Shown one piece after another: positions 7,171 to 37,473 of a stretch of DNA of 64,000 nt; position 1 is the stretch's first letter, and the number at the start of each line of letters is the position of its first letter. The position numbers and the translations under genes were made by a program. The notes beneath the pieces are model-generated. The model did no database searches, was not told the origin of the DNA, and saw only the letters and a list, made by a program, of their open reading frames with translations. This DNA comes from Tenggerimyces flavus. Its GTDB lineage: Bacteria; Actinomycetota; Actinomycetes; Propionibacteriales; Actinopolymorphaceae. The stretch is taken from positions 1 through 64,000 of the forward strand of contig NZ_JAFBCM010000001.1 in the NCBI RefSeq assembly GCF_016907715.1, written 5' to 3'.

Positions 7171-8367
7171 CTAGAACTGCTCGAACAGGAACGGGGTCGC
7201 CGCCGGGAACAGCGTCCGTAGCGTGGCGGCGGCCTCGTTCGAAACCTCGCCGTACCCGCGCAGCGGCAGGTCGACCGGGTCGAGGACGCCGTACACCAGC
7301 GCCGCGAGCCCGTGCGAGGTCAGCTGCGCGCTCGGCGTACCGCCTTCCTTGACGTCGAGCACGCCGCCAGTCCCGGACAGCGTCCACGTCCCTCCGACGA
7401 ACGGGTCGTCGTCGATCTTGACCGTGATCGAGGCCGAGCCCGCCGACATCCCGGACAGTCCCGGCACCGAGAGCACCCGCCCCATCGGCGCGCTCATCGA
7501 CGGCGCCTGGATCCGGGTCTCGTCGGCGTACGCGAGGTCGGTGTACCAGACGTCGGGTCGGTCGTCCGGCGGCAGCGTGAACGTGAACGAGTCGAACTCC
7601 AGGTGCCGCGCCAGCCACTGCAGCAGCAGGGCTCGCCCGACCGGGGTGCGGTACAGGAACTCGCGGCCCGCGATCGTGGCGCCGTGCCCGAGCGTGCGGT
7701 ACCGGAACACCCCGACGACCTCGCCCTCGTGCCGGGCGAACACGAGCCATTCCTTGTCGTCGTCGCCGAGCTGCTGGGCGCTCTTGCGGCCGCGCCGACC
7801 GAAGCCATGTCGTTCGCCGAGCAGCAGCTCGGTCGCCGCGTAGTACTCGTCGAACGCCGCCCCGATCCGGTGGAACGTGATCTCGCCCGGCAGCTCGCGC
7901 TTCAGCAACGGCTGCAGGCCGTCCGTCCGGAGCCGGATCGAGCGCGCCTTTGGGAAGCCGACGTACCCGAACCGCTCGTAGAACGACTCGCTGAACGGGT
8001 ACAGCGTGCTCGTCACGTGGCCCGAGTCGCGCAGCTCGCCGTGCAGTTGGGTGAGCAACTTCCGTACGTGCCCCTGGCGCCGCGCGGCCGGATGCGTCGC
8101 GACGCCGCTGACGCCGAGCATCGGCACGACGAGGCCGCGGAGGTTCTGCCGCATGGGCATGCCGACGACAGCTGCCGCCGGCTCGCCCTTCACGAAGGCC
8201 GCGAGCCTCGTGTTGTCCTCGCGGTACTTCTCGCCTTCGCGCCAACTGTCCGATTGATCCGGTGCGGTTGGCGATTCGCCGAATGCGTAGCCGTGCAGGA
8301 GGACCGACAGCGAATGCCACTCCTCCGCGTCGACGTGCCGGATGTCAACGTTCGGGTCGTTGCTCAC
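7171..8367 (-). CDS. Eis-like GNAT N-acetyltransferase
   Basis: 398 residues with the layout of the Eis family: an N-terminal GNAT domain with the acetyl-CoA loop VATHPAARRQGHVRKLL (about 85-101), a second GNAT-like domain, and a C-terminal SCP2-like domain ending in the free carboxylate ...FLFEQF, which in Eis enzymes lies at the active site. GTG 8367 follows TACTGT by six bases, so leaderless initiation is likely. Eis relatives acetylate amines such as aminoglycosides or protein lysines; the substrate here is unknown. The stop is 5 bases from the convergent DUF1707 gene. Confidence 0.9.
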   Translation of the reverse strand: MSNDPNVDIRHVDAEEWHSLSVLLHGYAFGESPTAPDQSDSWREGEKYREDNTRLAAFVKGEPAAAVVGMPMRQNLRGLVVPMLGVSGVATHPAARRQGHVRKLLTQLHGELRDSGHVTSTLYPFSESFYERFGYVGFPKARSIRLRTDGLQPLLKRELPGEITFHRIGAAFDEYYAATELLLGERHGFGRRGRKSAQQLGDDDKEWLVFARHEGEVVGVFRYRTLGHGATIAGREFLYRTPVGRALLLQWLARHLEFDSFTFTLPPDDRPDVWYTDLAYADETRIQAPSMSAPMGRVLSVPGLSGMSAGSASITVKIDDDPFVGGTWTLSGTGGVLDVKEGGTPSAQLTSHGLAALVYGVLDPVDLPLRGYGEVSNEAAATLRTLFPAATPFLFEQF

Positions 8368-8387
8368 CCAGAGACAGTAGCGGGGGC

Positions 8388-9764
8388 CTACGCGGGCACG
8401 ACGTTCTGGTTCAGGCGGAAGACGTTGTCGGGGTCCCACGCCTTCTTGACCTGCTGCAGCCGCACGTAGGTCTCGGTCGGGTACGCGGTCTGCGCGCCCT
8501 CGTCGGTGAGGAAGTTGACGTACGTCCCGACGACCGGCGCCGGCAGCTTCTCCGCGCCGCCTCTCGCCCAGTCGCGGGCGGGGGTGGGGTCCTGGCCGGG
8601 GTGCCAGTCGGCGTGGAACTCGATCGCCCAGCTCGCCGACCGCGGCGCGTACGCCGTCGCTTCGACCGGGACGCGCGAGATCGCGCCGCCGACCGCGGTG
8701 AGCATCACCATGGCGAACGGCGTGGGCGCGGTCAGCTTGTGGTCGATCAGCATGTCGATCGTCGCGTCGTCGATGGTCTCGTGCAGCGAGGCCTTGAGGT
8801 AGCGCCCGACGCCGTGCTCGGACATCGGGTCGATCGTCTGCTGCAGGACCGGGTACGGCATCGCCTGGAACATGTCCATGAACGGCGTGACGCCGTTCTC
8901 GCGCAGCGGCGCCAGCACGCGCTCGCCCTCGTCGGCGGGACCGGCGTAGCAGGCGGCGAGGATCACGATCGGCTTGCCCTGGAGGTGCTCGGGGACGAAC
9001 GGCGCGGGCGGCGCGGTGCTGAAGACCAGGACCTGGCCGACCTCGTCCGGAGCGGTCTTGCCGAACTCGAGGTAGTGCCGGAACAGCGCGGGCGCGTCCT
9101 TGCCGTCGTACATCGCCGAGCCCGCGAAGACCACGGGGCCGAGCTCGTGCAGCTGGTAGGTGAACTTCGTGACGACGCCGAAGTTGCCCCCGCCGCCGCG
9201 GACGGCCCAGAACAGGTCGGGGTTCTCGTCCTTGTTGGCCGTGACGAGCTTGCCCTCGGCGGTGACGAGCTCGACCTCGAGCAGGTTGTCGCAGGCCAGG
9301 CCATGCTTGCGGGCGAGCCAGCCCATGCCGCCGCCGAGCGTCAGGCCGGCGATGCCGGTGTGGGAGACCAGGCCGCCGGTGGTCTGCAGGCCGTGCGCCG
9401 CCGTGGCGCCGTCGAGGTCGGCGAGCAGCGCGCCGCCTTCGGCGACGGCGATCTTGCGCTCGGCGTCGACGACGACCTTGCGCATCAGGCTGAGGTCGAC
9501 CACGACGCCGTCGTCGACCACGGACAGGCCGGGGATGCTGTGTCCGCCGCCGCGGATGGCGATCGGCAGGTCGTTTGCCCTGGCGAGGCGGAGGGCCGCG
9601 GCGACGTCGTCGGGCGTGGTGCAGCGGGCGATGAGCGCGGGGCGCCGGTCGATGGCTCCGTTCCAGACCTTGCGGACCTCGTCGTACGCGGGATCGCTGG
9701 CGAAGACCAGCTCTCCGGCGAACCCGTTCGCGGCTGCGCGCAGCTCTTCTTCTTTGACAGTCAT
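8388..9764 (-). CDS. FAD-binding oxidoreductase, berberine-bridge type
   Basis: 458 residues. An N-terminal FAD_binding_4 (PCMH) domain contains RGGGHS with His75, the usual covalent FAD attachment residue, and the LTLGGGMGWLARKHGL loop. The C-terminus has the BBE motif (AWDPDNVFRLNQNV). Such enzymes oxidise sugars, alkaloids or polyketides with O2. There is no signal peptide, so it is probably cytoplasmic. It is divergent from the methyltransferase-like gene across 159 bases. Substrate not deducible. Confidence 0.92.
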   Translation of the reverse strand: MTVKEEELRAAANGFAGELVFASDPAYDEVRKVWNGAIDRRPALIARCTTPDDVAAALRLARANDLPIAIRGGGHSIPGLSVVDDGVVVDLSLMRKVVVDAERKIAVAEGGALLADLDGATAAHGLQTTGGLVSHTGIAGLTLGGGMGWLARKHGLACDNLLEVELVTAEGKLVTANKDENPDLFWAVRGGGGNFGVVTKFTYQLHELGPVVFAGSAMYDGKDAPALFRHYLEFGKTAPDEVGQVLVFSTAPPAPFVPEHLQGKPIVILAACYAGPADEGERVLAPLRENGVTPFMDMFQAMPYPVLQQTIDPMSEHGVGRYLKASLHETIDDATIDMLIDHKLTAPTPFAMVMLTAVGGAISRVPVEATAYAPRSASWAIEFHADWHPGQDPTPARDWARGGAEKLPAPVVGTYVNFLTDEGAQTAYPTETYVRLQQVKKAWDPDNVFRLNQNVVPA

Positions 9765-9923
9765 GGTTTCGCGTTCCCCCTCTTGGTCGACTCCCCTCAG
9801 GATCGTAGGTCGTGTGGTTGGTCGCCATCGGCGGTTCTACGTAATCACGGAGGGTGTCCGGGGGCTGTTGTACGCAATTCCACCGATGCCGCTTGGCCCG
9901 TTCGCGCACCGATGATGCGCCTT

Positions 9924-10691
9924 ATGAGTGAGCCGCATCCCGAGACGTTCGCAGCTCTGCACGACGCCGTGGGGACGGCCGCGGTGCTGGACAGCGCGGT
10001 CCAGCTCGGCGTTCTGGCCCGGCTGGCGGAGGGCGCGGCGACGCCTGCCGAGGTCGCGCTTTCGTGTGAGCTTCCTGAGCGGCAGGCCCATGCGTTGGTG
10101 GTGGCGCTGGTGTCGATCGGGGTGGTGGTGCACGTACCGCCGGACCGGTTCCGCCCGGCGGTGGCGGGGATGCCCGCCGTGCACCGGCTGCTCGACGTGT
10201 GGCGGCGGTTGCCGCGGCAGTTGGGGCAGAACGGGTTGCCCACGGACCCGTACGACTTCGCCTCTTTGGACTCGGGAGCCGTCACTCGCGCGCGGGGCCT
10301 GCTTGCCCGTCCGGGCGACCGGTTGCTGGAGGTGTCCACCCCTTCGGTCGCCGCCGCGCCTGATTCGTACGATCTGATCCTGGTCGACAACGTGTGTCAC
10401 CTGCAGACGGAGCCGGAGAACCTGCGGTTGGTGGCACGGTTGGCTCCCGCTCTGCGGCTTGGTGGGCGGTTGGCGATCGTGGATGTGCTGCCTTCTTCTT
10501 CGTCCGCTCCGCCGATGTCTCTGGCTTTGTACGAGCTGTCGTTGGCCGTGCGGACTGCCGGGGGCCGACTGCATCCGGTGGCGGCGTACCGGCGGTGGCT
10601 GCACCTGGCGGGGTTGCTGGACGTGTCGGTGGTGCCTCTTGGTGGGCGGCTCCCGCATGCGCTTCTCACAGGTGCGCGTCCGAGCGCGTAG
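9924..10691 (+). CDS. O-methyltransferase-like protein with degenerate SAM region
   Basis: 255 residues. The N-terminal half resembles the winged-helix dimerisation domain of plant-type O-methyltransferases (VLDSAVQLGVLARLAEGAATPAEVA). The C-terminal half keeps the core strands YDLILVDNVCHL and LRLGGRLAIVDVLPSS. The usual glycine-rich SAM loop is not recognisable between them (GDRLLEVSTPSVAAAPDSYD is short), so activity is uncertain. ATG 9912 would add four residues. The next gene (PhzF family) follows after 24 bases. Confidence 0.65.
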   Translation: MSEPHPETFAALHDAVGTAAVLDSAVQLGVLARLAEGAATPAEVALSCELPERQAHALVVALVSIGVVVHVPPDRFRPAVAGMPAVHRLLDVWRRLPRQLGQNGLPTDPYDFASLDSGAVTRARGLLARPGDRLLEVSTPSVAAAPDSYDLILVDNVCHLQTEPENLRLVARLAPALRLGGRLAIVDVLPSSSSAPPMSLALYELSLAVRTAGGRLHPVAAYRRWLHLAGLLDVSVVPLGGRLPHALLTGARPSA

Positions 10692-30575: not shown

Positions 30576-30615
30576 GACCGCCGCCTTGGCTGTCATGGGG
30601 GTGGTGTCCGGAACG

Positions 30616-32391
30616 ATGGGGTCCGTGCCCCTTCCTGGACAACAGAGCCCAGAAGCCCTCGTCGCCGGTTCGCCGGTCGCGGTGGCCGTCGTGCCCGGGG
30701 TGGGCATCGGGCTGGCGTTCGGTGGGCAGCGGTGGTCGTTGGCGGGCGATCCGGCGTCGCTCGTCCGGCAGCTGACGGAGAGGCACCGGCCGCGCTGGGT
30801 CTGGTGGGACGCCGCGACGACGGCGCGGGAGCTGGTGGACGTACGGCTGGCGAGCTGTTGGGACCTCGCCGCCGTGCACCGGCTGCTGTACGGAGGGCAC
30901 CGCGCCGATCCGGCCGCGGTGTGGGCGGCAGCCCACGAACTGGCCGAGCCGGAGCCACGGCGGCGTGGTGAGCCGACCTTGTTCGACGAGCCGACGCCGC
31001 CTCCGGACTCCCCTGTTCTGCCCGATGGACAGCTGCATCCGGAGTGGTGCGATCAGGAGTTCGAGTCGCCGGATCACGCGGCCCAGTGGGCTTCGCTCGC
31101 GCTGGAGGTGCACGAGAGCCAGCGGCGGATCCTCGCGCGGCTTGGCGATCCGCGGCCGGTGCCGCGTTCGCCCAAGCTCTGCCTGCTGACGGCGTACGCG
31201 GAGTCGGCGGCGGCGTTGATCGCCGTCGAGCTCGAGCACGACGGGCTCCCGCTCGACCGTGCGGCGGCCGAGGAGTGCATCGCGGGCTACGTCGGGCCGC
31301 GCCCCGCGGACGCCGCGGAGGAGACCGCGCTGCGAGTACGGCGCGACCAGGAGGTACTCGCCCATTGGCGCGAGGGGACGACCGCCGACCTGCGCAACCC
31401 CGCACAGGTCAACGAGCTGCTCGCCAAGATCGGCATCGTCGTCCCGGACACGCGGTCCTGGCGGCTGGAACCGTTCCGCGCCACCCACGCCGGCGTGGCC
31501 GCGCTGCTGGACTGGCGCAAGGCGGAGCGGGTGCTCACGACGTACGGGTACCGCTGGCTGGACCGGCACGTCGGGGCGGACGGCCGGCTGCGCGGCGGTT
31601 GGGGCGCGGCGGACGGCGGCGCGGGGCGGATGACCGCGCAGGCGGGGCTGCACAACCTGCCCTCGTCGCATCGCGTCGCGGTACGCGCGGAGCCGGGGCA
31701 TGTGCTCGTCCGCGCGGACCTGGGGCAGATCGAGCCGCGCGTGCTGGCGGCGGTGTCGGGTGATGCGGGGCTGACCGCGGCGACACAGTCGGACGACCTC
31801 TACGCACCGGTGGCCGCGCAGATCGGAACGGACCGTCCGACGGCCAAGGTCGCGGTGCTCGCGGCGATGTACGGGCAGACGTCGGGCTCGGCCGGCGCGG
31901 CGCTGAAGCGAATGGAACGCGCGTACCCGCACGCGCTCGCCTACCTGCGCGCCGCCGAGGAGGCGGGCCGCGCGGGGCGGGACATCCGTACGTACGGCGG
32001 CCGGCGGATCCGGCTCGGGTCGGGGGCGGTCGATCCCGCATCGGTGTCGCCGCTGCGGGTGGACGCGGAGCTGCTCGCCGCGGGCGCGGTGCAGGGCCTG
32101 GTGACGGGGGCGGGGCGCTTCGCCCGTAACGCGGTGATCCAAGGCGCGGCGGCAGAGCTGTTCAAGGCCTGGGCCGCCAGCGTGCGCGCGGCCCTGGTGC
32201 CGCTAGGCGGGCGGATCGTGCTGTGCCTGCACGACGAGCTGCTCGTCCACGTCCCCGCTGTCCACGCCGAGACCGCGGCTGCGGTCGTGACCGGCTCGCT
32301 CGCGACGACCACCGCCTGGTGGGCCGCCGGCAGCGGCGTCCACTTCGTCGCCGACGTGTCCGTGGTGGACCGGTGGTCGGATGCCAAGTAA
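30616..32391 (+). CDS. Family A DNA polymerase-like protein (exonuclease-domain remnant plus polymerase domain)
   Basis: About 591 residues, matching actinobacterial 'bifunctional 3'-5' exonuclease/DNA polymerase' proteins. The N-terminal 200 residues correspond to the exonuclease region, but no clear DxE motif is seen. The polymerase part has motif A RADLGQIEPRVLA (Asp kept, usual Tyr-Ser replaced), motif B RPTAKVAVLAAMYGQ (Arg, Lys and Tyr kept; O-helix Phe replaced by Leu) and motif C LCLHDELLVHVP (HDE kept). So polymerase activity is plausible. ATG 30595 is an alternative start. Distinct from replicative PolA, with no 5' nuclease domain. Confidence 0.88.
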   Translation: MGSVPLPGQQSPEALVAGSPVAVAVVPGVGIGLAFGGQRWSLAGDPASLVRQLTERHRPRWVWWDAATTARELVDVRLASCWDLAAVHRLLYGGHRADPAAVWAAAHELAEPEPRRRGEPTLFDEPTPPPDSPVLPDGQLHPEWCDQEFESPDHAAQWASLALEVHESQRRILARLGDPRPVPRSPKLCLLTAYAESAAALIAVELEHDGLPLDRAAAEECIAGYVGPRPADAAEETALRVRRDQEVLAHWREGTTADLRNPAQVNELLAKIGIVVPDTRSWRLEPFRATHAGVAALLDWRKAERVLTTYGYRWLDRHVGADGRLRGGWGAADGGAGRMTAQAGLHNLPSSHRVAVRAEPGHVLVRADLGQIEPRVLAAVSGDAGLTAATQSDDLYAPVAAQIGTDRPTAKVAVLAAMYGQTSGSAGAALKRMERAYPHALAYLRAAEEAGRAGRDIRTYGGRRIRLGSGAVDPASVSPLRVDAELLAAGAVQGLVTGAGRFARNAVIQGAAAELFKAWAASVRAALVPLGGRIVLCLHDELLVHVPAVHAETAAAVVTGSLATTTAWWAAGSGVHFVADVSVVDRWSDAK

Positions 32392-34234: not shown

Positions 34235-34333
34235 CCGGGTGCCGCGGTGCTTTCCTCCCCGGCCTGCTACCGAACTGGACATAAACGGCAGCCATTGGAC
34301 GGGGAGGAAGGCACCGCGTTCAAAGCACCCGGC
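34234..34333. repeat. Large composite inverted repeat (possible structured RNA or terminator)
   Basis: Starting in the stop codon of the binding-protein gene, two nested inverted repeats form an imperfect 100-base palindrome: GCCGGGTGC (34234-34242) with GCACCCGGC (34325-34333), and a 19-base arm CGCGGTGCTTTCCTCCCCG (34243-34261) with its complement at 34300-34318 (one mismatch). The 38-base loop is less GC-rich. There is no T tract. It is longer than an ordinary terminator. Confidence 0.6.
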
Positions 34334-34387: not shown

Positions 34388-36043
34388 ATGAGCTTGCCGA
34401 TCCTCCTGACCGTCGACGACGACCCGTCGGTCTCCCGTACCGTCGCCAGGGATCTGCGGCGCCAGTACGGGGAGCACTACCGCATCATGCGCGCCGACTC
34501 CGGGATGGACGCCCTGGAAGCGCTGCGCGAGGTGAAGCTGCGCGGCGGCACCGTCGCCGCGATCCTCGCCGACTACCGGATGCCGCAGATGGACGGCATC
34601 CAGTTCCTCGAGCAGGCGATGGACCTGTTCCCGCACGCCCGCCGCGCGCTGCTCACCGCGTACGCCGACACCGAGGCCGCGATCCAGGCGATCAACGTCG
34701 TCGACGTCGACCACTACCTGCTCAAGCCGTGGGACCCGCCGGAGGAGAAGCTCTACCCGGTCGTCGACGCGCTCGTCGAGACCTGGAAGGCGGTCGGCGA
34801 GCAGGAGGTCGCGGAGACCAAGATCGTCGGCCACCGCTGGTCGGCGCGGTCGTACGAGGTCCGCGAGTTCCTCGCCCGCAACTCCGTTCCGTACCGCTGG
34901 TACTCCGCTGACGAGCCCGAGGGCGCCCGGCTGCTCGAGGCCGCCGGCGCGACGCCCGAGGACGTGCCCGTCGTGATCACGCCGGACGGCGAGGCGCTGC
35001 GCAGCCCGTCCGGCCCGGAGGTCGCGGCCGCGGTCGGCCTGAACACCACGCCGGCCGAGGACTTCTACGACCTGATCGTCATCGGCGGCGGGCCCGCCGG
35101 CCTCGGCGCGGCCGTCTACGGAGCGAGCGAGGGCCTGCGTACGGTGATCGTCGAACGCGACGCCACCGGCGGGCAGGCCGGGCAGAGCTCGCGGATCGAG
35201 AACTACCTCGGCTTCCCCGACGGCGTCTCCGGCACCCAGCTGACCGACCGGGCCCGCCGGCAGGCACAACGGTTCGGCGCGGAGGTCCTCACCGCCCGCG
35301 ACGTGATGGGGCTGGAGGCCCGCGGGTCGAGCCGGGTCGTGAAGTTCGGCGACGGCACGGAGATCGCCGCGCACTCCGTCGTCCTCGCGACCGGCGTCTC
35401 GTACCGAGCCCTCGCCGCGGGCGGTTCGGAGGACTTGACCGGGCGCGGCATCTACTACGGCGCGGCCTCGACCGAGGCGCCGAACTGCTCCGGGCAGGAC
35501 GCGTACGTCGTCGGCGGCGCCAACTCGGCCGGCCAGGCGGCGGTCTACCTGTCCCGTTTCGCCAAGTCCGTCACGCTGTTGGTCCGCGGCGAGTCGCTCG
35601 AACGGTCGATGTCGCACTACCTGATCGAGCAGCTGCGCGGGATCGACAACGTGAACGTACGACTCCGTACGACCGTCGAGGAGACGCACGGCGAGGAGCA
35701 CCTGGAGCGCCTCACGATCTGCGAGGGCGACGGGTTCACCGAGGCCGTGGCGACCAACCACCTGTTCGTGTTCATCGGCGCCGCGCCGCGGACGGAGTGG
35801 CTGGACGGGACGATCTCCCGCGACCAGAACGGCTTCGTGCTCACCGGTCCCGACCTGCTGGTCGACGGCCGGCGGCCGCGGGCCTGGCGGCCAGACCGCG
35901 ACCCGTACTACCTGGAGTCGTCGATTCCGGGCGTCTTCGTCGCCGGCGACGTACGCTCACAGTCGGTGAAACGAGTGGCCTCGGCCGTCGGCGAAGGCGC
36001 CATGGCGGTCACTCTCGTCCACCGGTACCTGGAGGACCGATGA
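34388..36043 (+). CDS. Response-regulator receiver fused to thioredoxin-reductase-like flavoprotein
   Basis: 551 residues in three parts. Residues 1-125: receiver domain with DDD (10-12), Asp62 in ILADYRMPQMDG and LLKPWD. Residues about 145-215: a thioredoxin/glutaredoxin-like segment (RSYEVREFLARNSVPYRWYS, VPVVITPDGEALRSPSG). Residues 220-551: a pyridine nucleotide-disulfide oxidoreductase with FAD loop IGGGPAGLGAAVYGAS, NADPH loop VGGANSAGQAA and GVFVAGDVR. The redox-active CxxC of thioredoxin reductase is absent. ATG 34388 follows TAACCT by seven bases. Overlaps the next gene, a histidine kinase, by 4 bases. Confidence 0.92.
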   Translation: MSLPILLTVDDDPSVSRTVARDLRRQYGEHYRIMRADSGMDALEALREVKLRGGTVAAILADYRMPQMDGIQFLEQAMDLFPHARRALLTAYADTEAAIQAINVVDVDHYLLKPWDPPEEKLYPVVDALVETWKAVGEQEVAETKIVGHRWSARSYEVREFLARNSVPYRWYSADEPEGARLLEAAGATPEDVPVVITPDGEALRSPSGPEVAAAVGLNTTPAEDFYDLIVIGGGPAGLGAAVYGASEGLRTVIVERDATGGQAGQSSRIENYLGFPDGVSGTQLTDRARRQAQRFGAEVLTARDVMGLEARGSSRVVKFGDGTEIAAHSVVLATGVSYRALAAGGSEDLTGRGIYYGAASTEAPNCSGQDAYVVGGANSAGQAAVYLSRFAKSVTLLVRGESLERSMSHYLIEQLRGIDNVNVRLRTTVEETHGEEHLERLTICEGDGFTEAVATNHLFVFIGAAPRTEWLDGTISRDQNGFVLTGPDLLVDGRRPRAWRPDRDPYYLESSIPGVFVAGDVRSQSVKRVASAVGEGAMAVTLVHRYLEDR

Positions 36044-37473
36044 GCGCGGAGATGCCGACCCGCGAAGACCTGCGCACCCTCTTCCTGTTCGAGAGCCTCG
36101 ACGAGGAGCAGCTCGACTGGATCATGGAGCACGCCGAGGTCAAGGAGTACGACGAGGGCGACACGGTCGCGTCCGAGGGCAAGACCGGCGACTGGTTCTA
36201 CGTCCTGCTGAGCGGCACGTTGCGGATGTGCCGCAAGGTCCGCGGCGAAGAGGTCGAGGTCAACCGCACCGACCAGCGCGGCGTCTACTTCGGGACCACG
36301 CAGATCTTCCTCGACGAGGAGGTGCACCGGATCGGCGCGAGCGTGTACGCGCTGACGCCGATGACCGTTCTCGCGCTGCCGGACGCCGAGTTCTCCCATC
36401 AGTTCCGCGAGTGGTTCCCGCTGGCGACGCACCTGCTGCAGGGCATGTGGCTGAGCGTGCGCAACAACGACGCCACGGTGGGACAGCGCGAACGCCTGCT
36501 CGCGCTCGGCTCGCTGTCGGCCGGCCTGACGCACGAGCTCAACAACCCCGCCGCCGCGGCCGTACGCGCGACCGCGCAGCTGCGCGAACGCGTCGCCGGC
36601 ATGCGGCAGAAGCTCGCGATGCTGGCCAAGCACGACATCAACCCGGACCTGCTCGAGCAGCTGATCGAGATCCAGGAACGCCTCGTCAAGAAGGTCGCGT
36701 CCGCGCCGAAGCTCACTGCCATGCAGGAGTCCGAGCGCGAGGACGAGATGTCGGACTGGATGGACGACCACGACGTGCAGAACGGCTTCAACCTCGCGCC
36801 GACGTTCGTCGAGGCTGGCCTGACGGCCGACGATCTCGCGGACGTACACGAGTCCGTCGGCGACGACTTCCTCGACGGCGCGCTGCGGTGGATCGCGTAC
36901 GCGGTCGAGACCGAGTCGCTGATGGGCGAGATCGAGGACAGCACGACGCGGATCTCGACGTTGATCGGAGCGGCCAAGCAGTACTCGCAGATGGACCGCG
37001 CTCCGCATCAGGTGATCGACGTGCACGACGGACTCAAGGCCACCTTGGTCATGCTGGGTGGGAAGTTCGGCTCGGGCATCCAGGTCGTGAAGGAGTTCGA
37101 TCGTTCGCTGCCGCAAATCCCCGCGTACGCCGGCGAGCTCAACCAGGTGTGGACCAACCTCATCGACAACGCGGTCCAGGCGATGGACGGCCAAGGCACG
37201 TTGACGATTCGTACGCGCATGTCGGAGGACGACCGCGTCGTCGTGGAGATCTGCGATACCGGCAAGGGCATTCCGCCGGAGAACAAGCAGCGCATCTTCG
37301 AGCCGTTCTTCACCACGAAGCCGGTCGGCGAGGGGACGGGCCTCGGGCTGGACATCTCGTACCGCATCGTCGTCAGCCGCCACGGCGGCGACATGCGGGT
37401 GGAGTCCGAGCCCGGCGACACCCGCTTCCAGGTGTTGCTGCCTCTGCACGAGCAGCCGCAGGCGGAGGGATAG
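36040..37473 (+). CDS. Histidine kinase with N-terminal cyclic-nucleotide-binding-type domain
   Basis: 477 residues, soluble. Residues 8-130 form a cNMP-binding beta barrel (GDTVASEGKTGDWFYVLLSGTLRM); the family's phosphate-binding Arg-Ala motif is not evident. A dimerisation region has LSAGLTHELNNPAAAA (phospho-His in the H-box, about 168), a long insert, then HATPase motifs: N-box WTNLIDNAVQAM, G1 DTGKGIP, F-box FEPFFTTK, G2 GTGLGL. The start overlaps the flavoprotein stop (ATGA), so the two are a signalling pair in which the flavoprotein's receiver is the likely partner. Confidence 0.92.
   Translation: MSAEMPTREDLRTLFLFESLDEEQLDWIMEHAEVKEYDEGDTVASEGKTGDWFYVLLSGTLRMCRKVRGEEVEVNRTDQRGVYFGTTQIFLDEEVHRIGASVYALTPMTVLALPDAEFSHQFREWFPLATHLLQGMWLSVRNNDATVGQRERLLALGSLSAGLTHELNNPAAAAVRATAQLRERVAGMRQKLAMLAKHDINPDLLEQLIEIQERLVKKVASAPKLTAMQESEREDEMSDWMDDHDVQNGFNLAPTFVEAGLTADDLADVHESVGDDFLDGALRWIAYAVETESLMGEIEDSTTRISTLIGAAKQYSQMDRAPHQVIDVHDGLKATLVMLGGKFGSGIQVVKEFDRSLPQIPAYAGELNQVWTNLIDNAVQAMDGQGTLTIRTRMSEDDRVVVEICDTGKGIPPENKQRIFEPFFTTKPVGEGTGLGLDISYRIVVSRHGGDMRVESEPGDTRFQVLLPLHEQPQAEG

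Follow-up and report, generated by a model that had tools for sequence, protein, structure and literature searches.

Two-component systems with an enzyme output are a minority. The closest described ones belong to the class that P2CS/P2RP label 'TrxB', in which a receiver (REC) is joined to a pyridine-nucleotide-disulphide oxidoreductase output. SCO7298/SCO7297 of Streptomyces coelicolor, likewise a receiver fused to a TrxB-type output and followed by a kinase, is listed as a response regulator–histidine kinase pair of this class, unnamed and uncharacterised (PMC9739842 Table 1). SCO7298 is strongly upregulated in acid shock (PMC2631018) and, under the name trxB3, is induced by polysulfide (PMC9952706), and TrxB response regulators have also been counted in thermophilic cyanobacteria (PMC9953108). 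Here we describe a gene pair of this known but uncharacterised kind at positions 34388-37473 of a 64,000-nucleotide stretch of the Tenggerimyces flavus genome (contig NZ_JAFBCM010000001.1, positions 1 to 64,000; hereafter the window).

We propose, giving it roughly an even chance, that the pair is a dedicated two-component system with a protein-activity output, in which phosphorylation gates an NAD(P)H flavoprotein distinct from thioredoxin reductases. Since such pairs are already catalogued as two-component systems with a TrxB-type regulator, their novelty is lower than a preliminary sequence-only reading of the locus had implied. The 'TrxB' label says nothing of the absence of both dithiols, of the degeneration of the glutaredoxin domain or of the dedicated kinase with its cyclic-nucleotide-binding (CNB) domain; apparently undescribed so far are the double dithiol loss, the exchangeable inputs, a helical insert in the kinase and a link to UBP zinc-finger proteins.

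A flavoprotein that has lost both dithiols

Both genes lie on the forward strand. An open reading frame of 551 aa (34388-36043) is followed by one of 477 aa with an ATG start (36040-37473), and the four bases ATGA at 36040-36043 serve as start of the second and stop of the first. The sequence-only reading had claimed a receiver, a glutaredoxin (Grx)-like segment and a thioredoxin reductase (TrxR)-like flavoenzyme without CxxC in one protein, overlapping by 4 bases a soluble kinase gene; Pfam, profile and structural comparisons bear this out on both counts.

The receiver comprises residues 1-125 of the first protein (34388-34762; Pfam Response_reg 7-118, E 2.9e-14), with the codon of the phosphoacceptor D62 at 34571-34573. 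Residues were counted over 81 close relatives of the flavoprotein and 80 of the kinase unless another sample is named. D10-D12, D62, T90 and K113 are identical in 81/81, and the protein thus unites the hallmarks of the TrxB class, receiver Asp, Thr and Lys together with a Pyr_redox output. The Grx-like domain (residues 143-218, 34814-35041), a segment without a Pfam match of its own in the window flavoprotein, is aligned by hhalign along its full length (78 columns; probability 99.5%, E 2e-22) with the glutaredoxin domain of Grx-TrxR fusions, which itself matches PF00462, and an AlphaFold2 (AF2) model gives it the order beta-alpha-beta-alpha-beta-beta-alpha. It is real by homology and fold. 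At its former active site the window protein has WSARS (codons 34838-34852) and neither a CPxC nor a CxxS motif; serine occupies the first position in 77/81 relatives and the fourth in 78/81, and none of the 81 has CPxC.

The TrxR-like FAD/NAD(P)H module (residues 225-549, 35060-36034) is recognised by Pyr_redox_2 (227-537, E 2.8e-31), by Foldseek and, below the cut-off, by TIGR01292. It keeps the FAD and NAD(P)H Rossmann motifs, GGGPAGL and VVGGANSAGQAA, and GGGPAGL and GGANSAGQA are near-invariant among close relatives. The site of the former CxxC reads GAAST (residues 358-362, 35459-35473), where the Grx-TrxR fusions L200-L203 have CATC, and CxxC is absent from 81/81 close relatives as well as from the whole 78-row clade of related cores described below. 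The only invariant cysteine, C367 (35486-35488; 81/81), is also found in most CNB-fused and standalone forms; in the alignment it stands where ordinary TrxR, directly behind its CxxC, has an aromatic residue. E363, at the general acid position, is strongly conserved alongside it.

Two other flavoproteins invite comparison. AhpF likewise joins a TrxR module to N-terminal thioredoxin-fold domains; it has two such folds, keeps its CxxC motifs and carries no receiver. The bacillithiol disulfide reductase YpdA/Bdr, also TrxR-like and without CxxC, operates through a single cysteine that is placed elsewhere, and the window flavoprotein reaches only 62 bits against TIGR04018, for which the cut-off is 340.

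A soluble kinase with a CNB-like sensor and an interrupted DHp hairpin

The second protein is a histidine kinase with no membrane segment evident by eye or from its domain layout. Its N-terminal sensor domain (residues 7-125, 36058-36414) matches Pfam cNMP_binding (35-120, E 9e-11) with 42 bits against a cut-off of 27.5, and 52/52 kinase members match it at E <= 0.01. The cyclic-nucleotide-binding fold of the sequence-only reading stands, while the idea of a cyclic-nucleotide ligand is weakened. The phosphate-binding cassette is non-canonical: its Glu position holds A in 76/80 relatives and T in the window kinase, its Arg position is mostly Q, and no diverse kinase cassette inspected by eye has the canonical Glu and Arg together. 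These cassettes suggest that the direct ligand may not be cAMP, a candidate that we marked down once they had been found without Glu and Arg.

The usual histidine kinase motifs are present. H165, the H-box histidine (GLTHELNNP, codon 36532-36534), is identical in 80/80 relatives, and the N-box and G-boxes (N373/N377, D406/G408/G410, G430-G436) are conserved around a HATPase_c domain (residues 366-470, 37135-37449; E 9e-27). HisKA is found, weakly, in only 11/52 members. The dimerisation and histidine phosphotransfer (DHp) hairpin is not continuous: between its helices 127-197 and 278-319 lies an insert of ~80 aa (residues ~198-277, 36631-36870) without a Pfam match, which AF2 models as four helices (202-220, 227-243, 249-258 and 263-273) at a predicted local distance difference test score (pLDDT) of mostly 85-96. 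Among 32 diverse kinases the spacing from H165 to I305 is 136-147 residues, and E234, W240, P254 and G260 in the core of the insert are conserved. Given its position on the receiver-docking bundle, a contact between the insert and the flavoprotein is plausible.

At the loci L169-L172 and L052, one REC-TrxR gene is flanked by two or three CNB kinases with divergent cassettes. In L169-L172 these kinases follow the flavoprotein in tandem, so a single output may receive several inputs.

The kinase accompanies the flavoprotein across four phyla

Gene order was counted in the best 80 named loci from a scan of species genomes. A kinase relative lies downstream of the flavoprotein in 80/80, at most 200 nt away in 78 and within 4 kb in the other two, an arrangement far beyond chance. 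Among 296 genomes sampled from the phylum, a strong full-length flavoprotein occurs in 37, the kinase in 36 and both in 35 (Fisher p 6e-42, uncorrected for relatedness). The two flavoprotein carriers that lack the kinase both lie near contig ends; conversely, kinase carriers have a flavoprotein gene in 36/36 cases, one of which adjoins a broken copy. The pair is present on replicons of Streptomyces, Tsukamurella, Deinococcus, Nostoc, Gloeothece and Caballeronia, representing four phyla.

The state of the receiver goes with the presence of the kinase. D62, T90 and K113 are all intact in 26/26 kinase-linked rows (four phyla) versus 2/25 kinase-less ones, in which T90 is mostly V, I or L; the comparison comprises few independent events, most kinase-less rows being one clade. 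Were this kinase the phosphodonor, such a pattern would be expected. By this comparative evidence the flavoprotein almost certainly has the kinase as its dedicated phosphodonor, and both the pairing and the phosphotransfer that the pairing would serve are well supported.

One dithiol-less core with exchangeable inputs

We aligned 83 Grx-TrxR cores and built a tree with a single ordinary TrxR as outgroup, so its root is less sure than its clades. All dithiol-less cores form one clade of 78 rows (SH-aLRT 99*), whose sister is the group of Grx(WCPDC)-TrxR(CATC) fusions L200-L203. These share the domain order of the window flavoprotein and differ in keeping both dithiols and in having no regulatory domain; they are apparently the dithiol-bearing sister of the family. 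Within the dithiol-less clade, receivers linked to a kinase fall into one clade (support 90, unstarred) and most of those without a kinase into a second (99*); CNB-fused forms turn up at two or more positions. The dithiol-less core may thus carry a receiver with a kinase, a decayed receiver without one, a CNB domain, or nothing. As the regulatory part varies within the clade, the conserved part is the core, and the input is exchangeable.

One pass over the neighbouring genes relied on a crude gene caller in high-GC DNA, and neighbours were used if confirmed by Pfam or database annotation. The exception is the DnaK/ClpB genes around L043-L047, which were identified by eye with the annotated copy in L057 as their support. 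A gene for a UBP zinc-finger protein directly follows the kinase in 41/80 best loci, and such genes adjoin REC-kinase forms, CNB-fused forms, bare cores and a form with a decayed receiver (L183). In the T. flavus genome the one UBP gene (L217:7165-7425) adjoins an Na+/H+ antiporter-like gene (7422-9941; antiporter by eye), so the link is not local there.

The CNB-fused form, named 'cyclic nucleotide-binding domain-containing thioredoxin-disulfide reductase' by NCBI (e.g. L057), shares the Grx-like-TrxR core without CxxC, C367 and the UBP neighbour; it differs in having a CNB domain in the receiver's place, no kinase, and a location in a dnaK-grpE-J-cbpM-clpB-trxA-UBP operon. Actinobacterial CNB-fused forms stand at the end of the dnaK-grpE-J-cbpM-clpB-trxA operon (similar order in L043-L047, by eye). 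At L057, on a Rhodococcus pyridinivorans plasmid, and at L043-L047, the CNB-fused dithiol-less relative ends this chaperone operon; in one case the plasmid is typed mobilizable, which is possibly a transferable stress-chaperone module.

A class III adenylate/guanylate cyclase gene adjoins the REC-TrxR flavoprotein gene at five kinase-less loci (L037, L040, L206 and L207 by Pfam; L038 by close sequence similarity). Along with the CNB domains, these neighbours hint at cyclic-nucleotide signalling around the core.

A proposed phosphorylation-gated flavoprotein and its alternatives

If the pair is a phosphorylation-gated flavoprotein system, the CNB-like domain of the kinase would set autophosphorylation at H165 and the phosphate would pass to D62 of the receiver, which would then alter interdomain coupling and so gate the FAD/NAD(P)H module to which it is joined. 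The module would descend from a Grx-TrxR fusion whose relay from flavin to CxxC to the Grx CPxC has been dismantled, so that it should not reduce thioredoxin in the usual way; as far as sequence can tell, the classical mode of thioredoxin reduction is excluded. Hydride transfer from NAD(P)H to FAD is most likely kept, and electrons might be passed on directly, perhaps through or beside C367. Their recipient could be a small acceptor, such as persulfide, polysulfide, quinone or O2, or else a protein bound to the module, for which the recurrent UBP zinc-finger protein is the leading candidate.

The sequence-only reading had phosphotransfer directly controlling a redox enzyme and not transcription. 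The conserved pairing and the phosphotransfer residues speak for the phosphotransfer, and because the flavoprotein has no DNA-binding domain its output is not ordinary transcription. The redox enzyme is less firm: with both dithiol centres missing, the term 'redox enzyme' derives from the conserved FAD and NAD(P)H sites, and a redox output is plausible but unproven.

The structural model (mean pLDDT 79) agrees with a TrxR-like fold, the best-superposed TrxR entries in Foldseek reaching TMt 0.86-0.90 over the module. Compared with Lactococcus lactis TrxR, it superposes on the flavin-reducing (FR) structure 5mh4 with TMt 0.88 and on the flavin-oxidising (FO) structure 5mjk with 0.59. FR is the NADPH-to-flavin conformation of TrxR; FO presents the dithiol to the flavin and would serve no purpose in a dithiol-less flavoprotein. 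The response of SCO7298 to acid shock and to polysulfide also counts in favour of our interpretation.

Several points weigh against our interpretation. The FR preference is weak evidence, since AF2 worked from a shallow alignment of 55 sequences and predicts the FAD loop (residues 259-282) poorly (pLDDT <50). C367 is not universal, being V in Deinococcus aetherius and mostly missing in the kinase-less clade, so a mechanism through it cannot hold for all members, and we dropped it as a universal catalytic residue. SCO7298 is likened to the window protein by architecture and genus (Streptomyces loci such as L122 and L048), not by sequence. Moreover, the polysulfide study groups trxB3 with thioredoxin reductases and overexpressed only trxA, trxA3/C, trxA4 and trxB (PMC9952706). 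In the open literature searched we found no activity or biochemistry of any such pair, and searches for the fused protein under NCBI-style names, or for UBP with TrxR, yielded nothing useful.

The main rival, which we consider unlikely but by far the best of the alternatives, is a catalytically idle redox or nucleotide sensor, in which the kinase or a partner reads the FAD/NAD(P)H occupancy of the TrxR-like module, the receiver is a docking site or phosphate sink, and what the system really delivers is contact with another protein, for instance the UBP zinc-finger protein. Such a role would fit the retention of nucleotide sites in a protein that has shed both redox-active dithiols, as it would the persistence of the core in kinase-less relatives whose receiver has decayed, and the UBP protein is the only recurrent non-regulatory neighbour common to REC, CNB and bare forms. 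The strong conservation of E363 and C367, however, goes beyond the needs of a pure sensor, and the CNB-fused forms in a chaperone operon beside thioredoxin point to redox work. Improbable, in our estimate, is an enzyme like ferredoxin/flavodoxin-NADP reductase (FNR), with a small flavin or iron-sulfur protein as its electron acceptor. FNRs of the TrxR type belong to this superfamily, have no CxxC and occur among the PDB matches, but the window module is closer to TrxR than to FNR (153 vs 67 bits), and the annotated loci that we inspected showed neither a ferredoxin nor a flavodoxin gene nearby. Still less probable is the reading that NCBI-style names suggest, a two-component system that controls an ordinary thioredoxin reductase. 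The best PDB matches are indeed thioredoxin reductases, and the CNB-fused relatives bear the name thioredoxin-disulfide reductase and adjoin trxA; against this stand the uniform loss of CxxC, a TIGR01292 score of 216.6 bits, below the cut-off of 343.45, and the presence in the same genome, at C1:1.05 Mb, of another TrxR of conventional type (CATC) with a thioredoxin gene after it. That the two genes are merely co-transcribed neighbours, with the kinase's true target elsewhere, is very improbable: on a plasmid of Paraburkholderia sp. PGU19 the 7 kb around a kinase relative contain no flavoprotein gene, but co-occurrence within genomes is complete (36/36) and the receiver decays where the kinase is absent.

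Should phosphorylation gating hold, a flavoprotein without its redox cysteines would couple sensing to redox state in a new way, without waiting for transcription. More broadly, and somewhat short of an even chance, a family of NAD(P)H flavoproteins that arose from a Grx-TrxR fusion and lost its dithiols may be a general bacterial signalling output, plugged into phosphorylation (a receiver with one to three tandem CNB-sensor kinases) or into a CNB domain, and acting with UBP proteins and chaperones in a non-transcriptional stress response. The comparison corrects a common database name, since the mechanism of thioredoxin reductase is not available to the proteins here named 'thioredoxin-disulfide reductase', and it singles out D62, C367, the DHp insert and the UBP protein as concrete residues and partners.

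Other features of the locus and window

PADLOC matched neither the flavoprotein nor the kinase, so we have no evidence for a phage-defence role; a scan of viral contigs for the kinase returned no relative. A promoter and terminator scan and an Rfam search also found nothing.

Upstream of the pair, the intergenic stretch 34235-34330 forms a strong hairpin with 22-nt arms (minimum free energy -58.8 kcal/mol, z -6.9). It has three more copies in the genome at 76-81% identity, without an Rfam match, and the differences between arms among the copies look compensatory. Further upstream, the ORF at 30586-32391 has family A DNA polymerase-like motifs and is apparently without the classical N-terminal exonuclease (by eye).

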